NCBI RefSeq assembly: GCF_009649845.1
Contig: NZ_WJIE01000008.1
Span: forward strand, 248,001 to 312,000
DNA: 64,000 nt
Source: Polyangium spumosum
GTDB lineage: Bacteria > Myxococcota_A > Polyangia > Polyangiales > Polyangiaceae
Direction: 5' to 3'
Part shown: positions 1,791 to 7,221 of the stretch, piece after piece
How positions within the stretch are numbered: position 1 is the stretch's first letter
How the letters are laid out: every line of letters starts with the position of its first letter
The notes under the pieces: model-generated
The model's input: only the letters and a program-made list of their open reading frames with translations
Databases searched by the model: none
What the model was told of the DNA's origin: nothing
Position numbers and translations under genes: made by a program

Positions 1791-1966
1791 AGGGTTTCTC
1801 CAGCCGGAGGGGGCGGGCGAGAATAGGCGGAAGGGCAGGCGCGAGGCAAGGGAAGATCACGCGCGCTCGCCCGGGGGCCGGGCCACCCGCGCGCCGTCCC
1901 TCGCGCTGCACTTCGAGGCTCGTGATACACTCGCCGGTTCGGAGTCCTTACCGTAGGAGGTTTACA

Positions 1967-3511
1967 ATGAAGGAGTACATGAAGCTCAAGGCGGAGCGGT
2001 GGGAGCGCATCCTCTCGCACCCGTTCTTCGATTGGCTGCATTCCGACGCGGTGCCGCTCGAAGAGAAGGTCCTGATCGCGCCCATCATGACCGTGTTCGT
2101 GATGAACTTCCGCGACGCGAGCCGATACTTCATTCGTTTCCCGAAGCCGCGCAATCGCTTCGAGGAGGCGCTGAACGGCGGCACGCGCGAGGACGAGACC
2201 CACTCCCGGCTCTTCCTCGAGGACTGGACCAAGATGGGCCTCGACGAGCGCCTCGGCTTCCGCGCGAGCGACACGCTCTTCTGGCTCTTCCTCTCGAAGG
2301 AGAACGAGCGATTCCGTTACTTCGTCCTGGAGTTCGGCCGGCTCGACGTCGAGGACGAGGGTGATCCGCTCGTCCGCTTCGCGCACTCGGAGGCCGGCGA
2401 GGCCGCCGGGAACGCGTTCTTCTTTCACATGGCGAAGATCGCGACCGCGATCGAAGAAAAGACGGGGGTGCGGTACATCTACTTCGGCAATCACCACCTC
2501 GACCGGGAGCCGGGCTTCGTCTGGGGATCCAAGGGCGTCTTCGACGACGAGGTGCTCGACGACGAGCAGCGGCCGCTCTCGTTCCGGCTGGCGAACCGGA
2601 TGTTCGACCTGTTCGAAGAGGTCCACGATTGCTTCCTCGAATACGGCCGCACGTACATGGAGCGAGGCGTGCTGCCCACGAGGCCCCGGGCCGAGCCGTC
2701 CGCGCGCCTCGCGCGCCCGGAGCCGACGGCGCGCCCCTCGTACGGGGTGGAGCTCGAGCGGCCCATGGCGCTTTATCACGACGACGTCCAGCGCGTCATC
2801 GAGGAGCGGAAGGCGCAGGCGGCCCGGCACCCCTTTTATGCATGGCTGCGCGACGAGGCGAGCGTCTCCCCCGAGGAGAAGCTCATGCGGTTCCTCCCGT
2901 ACTGGGTGCCCGACATCATGGGATACCGAGACCTCAATCGATACGCGGTCCGTTACCCCGCGCCGCGCACGCCGGAGGAGCGGCGCATCAACGAATGGTG
3001 CGACGACCTCTCGACCCACAGCGCGCTCTTCCTCGCCGACTGGGAGGCCCTCGGGATGGACGAGGCGCTCGGCTGGAAGGCGAAGGATACATTGAAGTTC
3101 CTCTTCCTCGATCCGCAGGTCGAGATCCACCGGAAAAACCTGGCGACGTTCGCCAAGCTCGCCATGCGCCACCGCGATCCCGCGATGATGTTCTGGTTCG
3201 TCGCGGCCCTGGAGGCGAGCGGGCACGCGTTCTTCGAGAACGTGCAGAGGCTCGCGGAGGTGGTCGAGAAGGAGCAAAAGATCCGGCTCGATTACCTCTG
3301 CCATCGGCACGAGCTGGCGCACGCGGCGCGCGGCGAGCCGCTCGAGCGGAGCGCCTTCATCACGAGCAAGCGCCTCACCATTGCAGCGCGTGACGTGGCG
3401 ATCGGGATGGTGGAGACCATCTTCGACGCGCTGGAGGAGCAGCTCACGAGCTCGCTCGAGGTCGCGCGTTCGAACAGGCTGAACATCCCGAGCAGGCGCG
3501 CCGCTCGCTGA
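1967..3511 (+). CDS. Tandem-duplicated helical protein resembling heme-oxygenase-like iron oxidases
   Basis: I start at ATG 1967 because TAGGAGG lies seven bases upstream; the open frame reaches 45 bases further. The 514 residues hold two copies of one domain, about 17-230 and 287-500, offset by about 271 residues. Paired landmarks are HPFFDWL (18) and HPFYAWL (288), RDASRYFIRFPKPR (49) and RDLNRYAVRYPAPR (321), THSRLFLEDW (78) and THSALFLADW (350), and a Glu/His-rich helix (EAAGNAFF, then NHHLD; EASGHAFF, then HRHELAH). Helical content with spaced Glu and His recalls the heme-oxygenase-like diiron oxidase (HDO) superfamily, but this is fold-level inference, and ligand spacing differs between copies. 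A linker of about 50 residues rich in Pro, Arg and Ala joins them. Transcribed divergently from the acyltransferase. Confidence 0.6.
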   Translation: MKEYMKLKAERWERILSHPFFDWLHSDAVPLEEKVLIAPIMTVFVMNFRDASRYFIRFPKPRNRFEEALNGGTREDETHSRLFLEDWTKMGLDERLGFRASDTLFWLFLSKENERFRYFVLEFGRLDVEDEGDPLVRFAHSEAGEAAGNAFFFHMAKIATAIEEKTGVRYIYFGNHHLDREPGFVWGSKGVFDDEVLDDEQRPLSFRLANRMFDLFEEVHDCFLEYGRTYMERGVLPTRPRAEPSARLARPEPTARPSYGVELERPMALYHDDVQRVIEERKAQAARHPFYAWLRDEASVSPEEKLMRFLPYWVPDIMGYRDLNRYAVRYPAPRTPEERRINEWCDDLSTHSALFLADWEALGMDEALGWKAKDTLKFLFLDPQVEIHRKNLATFAKLAMRHRDPAMMFWFVAALEASGHAFFENVQRLAEVVEKEQKIRLDYLCHRHELAHAARGEPLERSAFITSKRLTIAARDVAIGMVETIFDALEEQLTSSLEVARSNRLNIPSRRAAR

Positions 3512-3523
3512 GCCCTCGCTCGT

Positions 3524-4009
3524 TCAGCCCTTCGCCGCCTTTGCTTTCATGTCCTTGACGTCGGCGAGGATCACGAGCGCCTCTTCCTCGCTGAGGAACT
3601 TCGCCTTGCGCGCCACCCAGAGGATGCCCTCCTCCGGCGTCGCCGCGATGATCCACGGAAAGATCACGCGGGTGAGCGAGTGCAGCGTCTTCACGGTCGC
3701 CCGGATCGCCCCCGCCTTGAGCCCTTGCCCCTCGATGATGAACGCGTGCGCCAGGATGTGCTTCTCGAGCGCGCGCGCCTGTTGCCCCAGCGCGTTCGCC
3801 GCCGCGCGCTCGGGCGCGCCGTGATCGGCGCTCGTGAGCACGATGAAGATCGTGCCGCCCGGGTGCCCCTGCATGATCTTGGCGCCGCGCTCGTTCACCT
3901 GGAGGACCACCGGCAGCGTCGGTGACTGCTTCCACCACACGACGAGGACCGGGGGACGCCACCCCATGACGACGGCGGGTTGGTCGTAGACGATCTCCAC
4001 GTTCCGCAC
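3524..4009 (-). CDS. Conserved hypothetical protein, 161 aa, possible SpoIIAA/STAS-like fold
   Basis: A soluble 161-residue protein with no signal peptide or membrane segment. The N-terminus (VEIVYDQPAVVMGWRPPVLVVWW) is a run of short hydrophobic strands. The middle (GTIFIVLTSADHGAP, then a helix to residue 85) and the segment AFIIEGQGLKAGAIRATVKTLHSL resemble the strand-helix pattern of SpoIIAA-like proteins common in myxobacteria. A second protein of this general type is encoded at 60183-60614. The gene ends 13 bases from the convergent duplicated helical protein, so the 3' ends abut. I do not recognise a specific function. Confidence 0.6.
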   Translation of the reverse strand: MRNVEIVYDQPAVVMGWRPPVLVVWWKQSPTLPVVLQVNERGAKIMQGHPGGTIFIVLTSADHGAPERAAANALGQQARALEKHILAHAFIIEGQGLKAGAIRATVKTLHSLTRVIFPWIIAATPEEGILWVARKAKFLSEEEALVILADVKDMKAKAAKG

Positions 4010-4080: not shown

Positions 4081-5187
4081 TCACAAAACCTCGACGGGCG
4101 GCGCAGGCGGAGGGCCAAGCGCCACGTCGCCCCAGCGGACGATGGCCGAACCCGAGCTCGACGAGCTGCCCACGGTGTGGACGAGGACGAGATCGCCGCG
4201 GCGGATCGGCAGCTCGGCGGCGGCCGTGTACAGGTTCACGGGCATCAGCGCGGGGCCGCAGTTCGCATAACGCGAGAACGTGTCGATGGTGCGCGCCGGA
4301 TCGAAGCCGAGGACGCGTGCGCAGAACGGCGCATACCACGCGGTCGGGGTATTCACGACGAGCCAGTTGATGTCCGATATCCCGAGCCCCGCCTTCCGGA
4401 GGGCGAGGTCGGCGGTTTTTCGGAGATATGGCTCGGAGACCTGGCGCAGGATCTTGCTCGCGCTCTTCTCCGCGCGGAACCGGACCACCTGCTTGCCGCG
4501 CGCCCGATCGTCCGTCACGTCGATCACGAAGGCGTTACACGTCTCGGCGCTGTGCAGCATCGCCGAGGCGACGAGCCCTTCCCCCGCCGGCACATCCGAG
4601 ACGACGAATGCGCCGGCCCCGTCGCCGGAGAACCACGACATCGTGTCGTGCTCCTCGATGGTCCGCGAATAGGTGCACGACACGACGCCGAGCACGTTCC
4701 GGTATTGCCCCGCGCGCACCAGGGCGCAGGCCGTCTCGAAGACGGCGAAGGCGCCCGAGCACGCGGTCTCCAGGTTCCACGCGGCGGAATGGGTGAGCCC
4801 GAGCTCGCCGGCGAGGAACGTGGCGTGGCCGATCCCCATCACGTCGGGGAAGAGCGAGCAGGAGAGGATGAGGTCCACCTCCGCGCGCGCGACCTTCGCG
4901 GCCTCGAGGGCCATGGTCGCGACGCGCGTCTCGAGCAAGAGCGCATTCTCTTTCGGCAAGAGCACCCGCCGCTCCCGGGCCCCGCGGAAGGGGTCGTCGA
5001 GGAACTTCGCCATTTCGGCGCCGAACGCGTCCGGCTCGTCGCGCGGCGCCTCGGGGGCGGCCCACACGTTCCGCTTCTCCACCGCCCCGCCGAACATCTG
5101 CGGGTGATGGCGGCGCCAGTAATCGTTGGTCTTCAGGCCACCGGGGAACGTGATGGCGAGGGATCGCATCCCTGCGGAGGTACTCAT
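4081..5187 (-). CDS. Ketosynthase III (FabH)-like protein with Asn in place of the catalytic His
   Basis: Start at ATG 5187, inside a 4-bp overlap with the stop of the upstream ThDP enzyme; 368 residues, the usual KAS III length. The thiolase-fold nucleophile is Cys143 in ETACSGAF. Aligned without gaps from memory to E. coli FabH, WLVPHQANLRI becomes WLVVNTPTAWY, so the catalytic His is Asn279, while the triad Asn is kept (Asn309 in RYANCGPA). Cys-Asn-Asn argues against ordinary decarboxylative condensation. KAS III-like acyltransferases with altered triads (for example CerJ, or the XclB/XclC proteins of xenocyloin biosynthesis as I recall them) suggest O- or C-acyl transfer instead. It probably works with its partner on an acyloin-type product. 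The family is firm; the reaction is inferred. Confidence 0.85.
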   Translation of the reverse strand: MSTSAGMRSLAITFPGGLKTNDYWRRHHPQMFGGAVEKRNVWAAPEAPRDEPDAFGAEMAKFLDDPFRGARERRVLLPKENALLLETRVATMALEAAKVARAEVDLILSCSLFPDVMGIGHATFLAGELGLTHSAAWNLETACSGAFAVFETACALVRAGQYRNVLGVVSCTYSRTIEEHDTMSWFSGDGAGAFVVSDVPAGEGLVASAMLHSAETCNAFVIDVTDDRARGKQVVRFRAEKSASKILRQVSEPYLRKTADLALRKAGLGISDINWLVVNTPTAWYAPFCARVLGFDPARTIDTFSRYANCGPALMPVNLYTAAAELPIRRGDLVLVHTVGSSSSSGSAIVRWGDVALGPPPAPPVEVL

Positions 5188-6905
5188 GAGGAAACACTCT
5201 CCTTGGCGGCTTGCGCCTCCAGGCTTTGAACGCGGCTCGTGATGGGCGGTCGTTCCTCCGGATCCACCCGGACATCCAGCACGAAGGGCCCTCCCGCGGC
5301 GAGCGCCGCGCGGAGCGCCGCCTCGAGCTCCTCCTCCCGCTCGACCTTCTCGCCGAGCGCCCCGAGCCCCTGCGCGATACGCACGAAATCGGTGTCGGGC
5401 AGCGTGGTCTCCACCGGATCGTAGCCGGACGCGCGCATTCCATGCTCGACGATCCCGTATCGACGATCGTTCAACACCACCCAGACCGCCGGGATGCCAT
5501 ACCGCACCGCCGTGCTCACCTCGCCGAGCATGAGCATCGAGCCGTCGCCCACGACCGCCACCGCGGCCTTTCCGCGCGCGCGCGCCGCACCGACGACGCC
5601 CGTCGTCGCGTGACCCATCGATCCGAAATGCAACCCCGATCGATATCGCCCCGGCTCCTGGAACCGGAGCACGTTGTTCCCCCACACGAATGCGCTGCCG
5701 GCCTCCGTGAGCACGGCCGCGTCGGACGACTCGACCACGACGCGCTGGATCGCCTCGAAGAGGAACCGCGGCCGGACCGCGCCCTCCCCGAGGGGCTCGA
5801 GCGGCGCCGGCCTCGGCAGCGGAGGCAGGGCCGGCCTTTTGCCGTGCCATACCGGCAGCCGCGGGAGCAGGGCCGAGAGGAACGCGCCAATCTCGGCCTG
5901 CACGCCGACCGTCCGCGCCCCGGGATACGCCGCGCCGAAGACCGCGGGATTGACGTCCACGTGGACGAACCCGCCCGGAGGCACGAGATCCGGCCTCCAG
6001 AACGACGTGCATTCCCAGAGCCGCGAGCCGAGGACGAGCGTGCGCTCGATCCGCGCCGCCTTCAGGCTCGACGCGGCGCGCGCGTGCCCTCCGACGCCCG
6101 TGGTCCCCGCGAAGAGCGGGTGATCCTCGGGGAAAATGCCCTTCGCGCGCGGCGAGCACATCACGAGCATCGACCGCCGCTCGGCGAGCGCGCGGACCAG
6201 CGGGACGGCCGTCCTCGCGCCGAACCCCACCCAGATCGCGCACGTCTCCCCGGTGAGGATGTTCGCCACGGCCTCGATCGCCTCGGCCGACGGCGCCGGG
6301 CCCGGCAGCGTCACGCCCTCGGCGAACGCCTGCGCTTCGAACGTCGCCGACTGCACGCTGAGCGGCAAATGTATGTGCGCGACGAACCCCTCCGCCGCGC
6401 GCGCCCCGACGGTCAGGCGCCGCAGCACGACGGGGAGCTGCGAGGGGTGCTCCACCGTCGTCGCATAGTGGAAGAGCGGGCCATCCGAGAGGAGGCCCGC
6501 GGGGATCGTCTTCGCGGTCGTCTCCTGGGAGGCCCCGCGCTCTCGCTGGGAGGGAGAGGTGCCGCCGGAGACGAGGATCACCCTGGCGCCCTCGACGCGG
6601 GCCGCGGCGAGCCCCGTGATCGCATTCGTGATCCCCGGGCCGGCCGTCGTGAAGACGACCGTCGTCCGATCCTTGGCCAGGCTCTCCTCGAGCGCCGCGA
6701 ACGCCGCGCCCGACTCGTGGCGGCAATGCAGGACGCGCACCCGGCTCCGCGCGAGGGCGTGGCAGAACGGGACGATGGAGCCGCCGCCGAGCCCGTACGC
6801 GACCTCCACGCCGAGGCTCGCGAGGAACGCGGCCAGGGCCTCGGACACGGACGCGCGGGGCGATCCAGGTGCTCCCGGAGGGAGCGGCGGAGGTGCGTGG
6901 TTCAT
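5184..6905 (-). CDS. Thiamine-diphosphate-dependent enzyme, acetolactate-synthase/lyase family
   Basis: A 573-residue protein from ATG 6905; an upstream in-frame TTG at 6926 would add seven residues. N-terminal Pyr domain: Glu64 in HCRHESGAAF is the cofactor-activating glutamate. The central domain carries AGPGITNAITG-type ligand loops. C-terminal PP domain: the ThDP/Mg motif runs from GDGSM (453) to LND (478-480), with correct spacing. Length and domain order match acetolactate synthase, benzaldehyde lyase and related carboligases. No regulatory small subunit is nearby, which argues against a branched-chain biosynthetic role. Instead the gene is fused by ATGA overlap to a KAS III-like gene, so a dedicated pathway joining an acyloin-forming carboligase and an acyltransferase is plausible. 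Substrates are unknown. Confidence 0.88.
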   Translation of the reverse strand: MNHAPPPLPPGAPGSPRASVSEALAAFLASLGVEVAYGLGGGSIVPFCHALARSRVRVLHCRHESGAAFAALEESLAKDRTTVVFTTAGPGITNAITGLAAARVEGARVILVSGGTSPSQRERGASQETTAKTIPAGLLSDGPLFHYATTVEHPSQLPVVLRRLTVGARAAEGFVAHIHLPLSVQSATFEAQAFAEGVTLPGPAPSAEAIEAVANILTGETCAIWVGFGARTAVPLVRALAERRSMLVMCSPRAKGIFPEDHPLFAGTTGVGGHARAASSLKAARIERTLVLGSRLWECTSFWRPDLVPPGGFVHVDVNPAVFGAAYPGARTVGVQAEIGAFLSALLPRLPVWHGKRPALPPLPRPAPLEPLGEGAVRPRFLFEAIQRVVVESSDAAVLTEAGSAFVWGNNVLRFQEPGRYRSGLHFGSMGHATTGVVGAARARGKAAVAVVGDGSMLMLGEVSTAVRYGIPAVWVVLNDRRYGIVEHGMRASGYDPVETTLPDTDFVRIAQGLGALGEKVEREEELEAALRAALAAGGPFVLDVRVDPEERPPITSRVQSLEAQAAKESVSS

Positions 6906-7221
6906 GAGGGGATGCTCGAAGGGCAATCATACGCCGCGGCCCGGGGGCGCTCAAACTTGCTCGACGATCCCCGCCACTTCGCGGGCGAGCGTGAGCGGGG
7001 ATGCCCACCCGGGCGACCCCCGATCCGCCCGCGCCTCGGGGCGACGGCGCACCACCTTCGTTCTCCGGCGGGAGAATTCAGGATCGCTCCAAAAATTTTT
7101 CCTCGTGACCGATGAGTCTGTCGGGGCCGCGTGGTCCAAGCCTGTGTCGACGGCGCGGGGGACCGGGTCGCCGCCACGCACCCGCAGCCACGAGAAGGCC
7201 GAAGCCCGAGGAGAAACGAAG
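6906..7221. promoter_or_regulatory. Divergent intergenic region with hairpin and A5T5 palindrome
   Basis: 316 bases between the divergent ThDP-enzyme and DoxX-like genes; I see no credible gene in it. It contains a perfect 6-bp inverted repeat with a 4-base loop (TTCTCC-GGCG-GGAGAA, 7061-7076), and 14 bases further a run AAAAATTTTT at 7091-7100. That run is strikingly AT-rich for this genome. Such a pair could be an operator beside a promoter or curved element. Which gene it controls cannot be told. The DoxX-like start has its own ribosome site GAGGAG at 7208-7213. Confidence 0.4.

Follow-up and report, generated by a model that had tools for sequence, protein, structure and literature searches.

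Introduction

What do two overlapping genes of Polyangium spumosum, one for a ThDP-dependent carboligase and the other for a KAS III-like protein with Asn at the position of the FabH His, make together, and to which known system do they belong? The genes lie in the stretch of 64,000 nucleotides analysed here (the window), from a genome of 10.8 Mb. In the present study, the pair was found to belong to a known kind, that of CybE and CybF, and the furanolide synthase pair is now extended to Polyangium. CybE joins two 2-oxo acids to an acyloin-type acid, and CybF carries out O-acylation with coumaroyl-CoA and then closes the furanolide, a small lactone, including a C-C bond (PMC12395478, PMC13288894); this chemistry has been demonstrated in vitro (PMC12395478). 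Co-localised cybE/cybF homologs have been reported in Plesiocystis pacifica and Enhygromyxa salina, and the P. pacifica pair occurs without the full cyb cluster (PMC8777810). We consider it probable that the Polyangium pair forms a minimal furanolide synthase module of the CybE/CybF type, and as a two-gene pair it is a short target for product discovery.

Results

The ThDP-dependent carboligase, related to CybE and ScyA by ORF and family searches, has 573 aa and is encoded on the minus strand (5184..6905, ATG at 6905). It directly adjoins the gene of the 368-aa KAS III-like protein (4081..5187, minus strand), which was assigned by Pfam, tree, residue alignment and model to the CybF (furanolide synthase) clade, with the triad C143/N279/N309. 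The two genes share an ATGA start/stop overlap at 5184..5187 on the minus strand; a sequence-only reading had described it, and it was found as described, running from 5187 to 5184. Just 5' of the ThDP ATG lies a putative sigma-70-like promoter, TTGAGC-17-TATGAT (6926..6954, minus strand), which comes from a consensus scan only, with 1 match against 0.1 expected. An ORF for a 161-aa protein on the same strand (3524..4009, minus), 71 bp downstream of the KAS-like gene, is possibly the third gene of the operon; it has an equivalent position in 4/5 other Polyangium loci, and the protein gave no Pfam or NCBIfam match. A small-protein family common to the pairs of the window (3524-4009), L022 and L023 was considered and rejected, as there was no profile similarity. 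On the plus strand, a 529-aa protein (1922-3511) reads as two similar halves, has no match in Pfam or NCBIfam and is encoded close to the pair in every Polyangium locus read. Among the genes neighbouring the Polyangium pair, including those beside it in the window, there is no gene for a CoA ligase, an ammonia-lyase or a tailoring enzyme.

In the ThDP protein, the TPP_enzyme N, M and C domains are all present by Pfam, the activating Glu64 stands within RHESGAAF and a GDG...ND motif begins at residue 453, in agreement with the intact ThDP motifs claimed earlier. Its top NCBIfam model is a ScyA-related TPP enzyme, at 673 bits and under the cut-off of 1000, and its closest solved relatives among the PDB matches are BbmA and CsmA. 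The enzyme shares 49% identity with a cyb-type ThDP enzyme from a cyanobacterium, 45% with its P. pacifica counterpart and 43-51% with the CybF-clade partner ThDP enzymes compared.

For the KAS-like protein, Pfam found both ACP_syn_III and ACP_syn_III_C. Its AlphaFold2 model (mean pLDDT 91.5) has the full KAS III fold and aligns with KAS III-type structures over almost all of its length (highest Z 41); the FabH rows of this comparison have Z of about 37-41 and rmsd of 1.9-3.1 over 305-331 residues. CerJ was absent among the PDB matches listed, which carries no weight alone. Cys112, His244 and Asn274 of E. coli FabH align with Cys143, Asn279 and Asn309 of the window protein, an assignment repeated when profiles were aligned to solved structures of FabH, so that the triad of the sequence-only reading was confirmed. 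The protein is thus like canonical FabH in its fold and in the Cys and Asn of the triad, but has Cys-Asn-Asn instead of Cys-His-Asn and differs further by Trp for Arg249 and by Thr-Pro (T280-P281) for Gln245-Ala246. The Trp, residue 284 of the window protein, is present in 75/75 clade members.

With columns 279 and 309 left out of the alignment, the tree groups the window KAS with CybF homologs and not with FabH; its clade comprises 47 rows, has SH-aLRT 100 and leaves FabH outside. Within this clade are the P. pacifica and E. salina homologs of CybF, together with cyanobacterial KAS proteins encoded beside cyb-type genes; the window KAS stands alone near its base, and the placement inside the clade is weakly resolved. 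Identity of the window KAS to CybF-clade proteins is 39-49%, and for both window proteins against the CybE/CybF pairs that make furanolides (cyanobacterin, enhygrolide) it is 39-52%. The myxobacterial ThDP-KAS pairs of P. pacifica and E. salina (deoxyenhygrolides, enhygrolides) resemble that of the window, with identities of 39-42% for KAS and 43-45% for the ThDP enzyme; the two E. salina KAS proteins are 74.5% identical as computed here, which agrees with the published 74.1% (PMC8777810). In E. salina SWB007 (L069, 3627-8101), the ThDP and KAS genes are separated by an ORF whose beginning resembles a flavin-dependent tryptophan halogenase.

The cyanobacterin system of Tolypothrix sp. PCC 9009 has ThDP and KAS III-like proteins of the same families, a likeness drawn through related cyb-type loci and not through the Tolypothrix sequences; the cyanobacterial cyb-type loci read have Cys-Asn-Asn like the window. 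The cyb cluster also contains a lyase, a CoA ligase, a halogenase and other genes (PMC8777810), whereas the Polyangium pair stands alone. In eight cyanobacterial loci (L045, L047, L049, L053, L063, L099, L102 and L051, the last with a spacer ORF), genes for an aromatic amino acid lyase and for an AMP-dependent acyl-CoA ligase stand 5' of the ThDP-KAS pair, as they do in cyb, and several of these loci also have DAHP synthase or P450; their apparent gene content fits the cyanobacterin gene set (PMC8777810).

The His-to-Asn change had been put forward as a distinctive feature of the pair. It is real in the window, but taken alone it is no mark of a new function, since Asn is the norm of the family and E. 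salina keeps His. Residue 279 is Asn in 66/75, His in 6/75 and Thr in 3/75 clade members, counts that include near-identical copies of some loci, and its triad partners Asn309 and Cys143 occur in 75/75 and 74/75. The first scan, of named genomes, relied on two peptide patterns. One of them includes the Asn and favours Asn-bearing matches; a recount on members matching the other pattern, which is free of the Asn, gave 22 Asn, 4 His and 1 Thr (n=27). Profile searches, in which residue 279 was not preselected, served as a second recount: the cyanobacterial family of L045 has Asn in all loci read, and the Myxococcota clade members read have Asn, His (L147, L149) or Thr (L153, L154). Counts free of the pattern bias thus still favour Asn. 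Asn at 279 is the norm in this clade of KAS III-like proteins, but no requirement. The E. salina CybF homologs are C-H-N, with His at the position taken by Asn in the window protein and its P. pacifica counterpart, and because of the E. salina proteins Asn at 279 alone is indecisive for mechanism or new function. The pair therefore poses a mutational question, namely the role of residue 279 in an enzyme said to perform a Morita-Baylis-Hillman-type ring closure.

The closest named loci are those of Polyangium. The pair is kept in 5/5 other same-genus genomes searched, at about 85% identity and with a shared gene neighbourhood, and pair and neighbours are thus conserved in all six Polyangium species searched. 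A search of related genomes, suggested by the sequence-only reading, found the pair beyond this genus as well, with homologous ThDP-KAS pairs in cyanobacteria, Acidobacteria and other myxobacteria. Because of this retention and of the homologous pairs in other groups, the pairing is not due to chance. In the scan of named genomes, the KAS family was found in Polyangium, Nannocystis, Minicystis, Enhygromyxa, Plesiocystis, Acidobacteria, many cyanobacteria and Xenorhabdus/Photorhabdus, with the ThDP gene directly upstream in most loci. In the profile search, a ThDP gene is nearby in 60/75 clade members. Four of the remaining 15 (L052, L055, L071, L103) have a divergently placed neighbour of one family, which in L052 is a ThDP enzyme of another subfamily, and some others sit at contig ends. 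ThDP and KAS partners show correlated divergence (Spearman 0.81 across all pairs from 44 loci, shared ancestry uncorrected), and this, together with adjacency in most CybF-clade loci, upholds the coupling of the two enzymes proposed before. The CybF-clade KAS genes of L021, L023, L092 and L096 have as partner a ThDP enzyme from a different subfamily (about 29-32% identity to that of the window), which points to partner exchange.

Xenocyloin biosynthesis, the parallel drawn by the sequence-only reading, was also compared. Like the window, XclA/XclB/XclC of Xenorhabdus combine a ThDP enzyme with KAS-like acyl-transfer proteins. A ThDP gene with about 34% identity to that of the window is present in four Xenorhabdus genomes, and the loci read have KAS-like genes after it, two of them in L187 and L188, against one in the window. 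The XclA-C candidates were assigned by gene order only and not by name; on that assignment, XclB and XclC have the triads T-Y-S and C-S-Y and share about 17-18% identity with the window KAS. With such identity and differing triads, xenocyloin was rejected as the nearest relative, and CybE/CybF is the close match. In L187, L188 and L190, the first KAS-like protein is without the catalytic Cys (Thr-Tyr-Ser); the second, which in L190 is broken up over two ORFs, has Cys-Ser-Tyr wherever it is intact.

Discussion

Gene coupling, family membership, active-site residues and fold were observed for the pair itself, and we infer both enzyme reactions by analogy. The ThDP enzyme would decarboxylate one 2-oxo acid, probably an arylpyruvate as in the analogous systems, and add the resulting unit to the keto group of a second 2-oxo acid, giving an alpha-hydroxy-beta-keto acid or an acyloin derived from it. 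An acyloin-type intermediate, as proposed from the sequence alone, is likely. In the KAS III-like enzyme, Cys143 would be loaded with an acyl group from an acyl thioester, followed by O-acylation of the hydroxyl of the intermediate. If the enzyme is CybF-like, it would then close the ester to a gamma-butyrolactone or butenolide through an intramolecular C-C bond, and by this analogy it probably closes a butenolide. Most likely, then, the KAS-like protein transfers an acyl group and is not a canonical KAS III. The acyl-transfer role given to it earlier holds to this extent, and it is too narrow in that the CybF relatives also make a C-C bond and a lactone. Since identity is only 39-52% and the window KAS stands alone near the clade base, the substrates may differ from those of the reference pairs.

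Other explanations of the pair have to be weighed against the furanolide synthase module. In FabH, the His is needed for malonyl decarboxylation and Arg249 belongs to the ACP-docking surface. Judged by these generally known roles, a canonical KAS III that condenses malonyl-ACP decarboxylatively onto an acyl-CoA starter is scarcely credible here: the fold, the Cys and the C-terminal Asn are all present, but the His is Asn and the Arg is Trp, and NCBIfam FabH models score the protein at 111-117 bits, far under their cut-offs of 249-292. The invariant Trp284 in place of Arg249 would fit a CoA-type donor and no malonyl-ACP. That the two genes are neighbours only, with the KAS-like enzyme acylating a substrate unrelated to the ThDP product, is very improbable. 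Three loci of the same KAS clade in Xenorhabdus and Photorhabdus (L087, L091, L100) do have no ThDP gene nearby, but one lies near the KAS gene in most clade members, four of the other 15 have an other-subfamily ThDP gene alongside, and the correlated divergence and the ATGA overlap also speak against it.

Transfer of the acyl group only, giving an O-acylated acyloin with no lactone as proposed for xenocyloin, we regard as unlikely. KAS-like enzymes with acyl-transfer activity are known from xenocyloin and cervimycin (PMC4425429, PMC4578411), and the genome has no obvious source of the alpha,beta-unsaturated aryl acyl-CoA that is used in CybF ring closure. Against this stands the distance of the Xcl-candidate KAS proteins, with their other triads, compared with the CybF clade.

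The acyl donor of the furanolide reading bears on the product. One aromatic ammonia-lyase was found in the window genome, on another contig; it bears a Ser-His motif, which we take to be that of histidine ammonia-lyase (HutH). As the sole genomic lyase is HutH-like, the genome offers no obvious supply of the acyl donor that cyanobacterial furanolides use. Tentatively, and with some doubt, a stand-alone, genus-wide furanolide-type module in Polyangium could work without a Phe/Tyr ammonia-lyase, and so use another acyl donor and make a new class of small lactones or acylated acyloins. A second Polyangium ThDP-KAS pair (L022, 5529-7205) lies downstream of a urocanate hydratase gene; as urocanate is a cinnamate analogue, it is a possible acyl source.

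Because the Xenorhabdus and Photorhabdus members occur with no ThDP gene nearby, the CybF clade is functionally non-uniform. In these loci, the KAS gene lies beside an AMP (prolyl-type) ligase and a dehydrogenase, which by a family search on L087 is a PigA/RedW-like prolyl carrier-protein dehydrogenase; the KAS is perhaps a pyrrole-carboxyl acyltransferase.

Myxobacteria also have a distinct group of ThDP-linked KAS III-like proteins (L025, L026, L142, L028, L035, L036, L157, L160, L161, L167, L171, L173, L175, L176). Where measured, its identity to the window KAS is 28-33%, and its triads vary (CNN, CVH, CFH, CIH, CHN and CHT). Its genes adjoin those of sensor histidine kinases, several being directly downstream or overlapping, and a kinase lies within 4.5 kb in 17/33 of this group against 1/30 in the myxobacterial CybF clade. 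This group is possibly a signal synthase with its own sensor.
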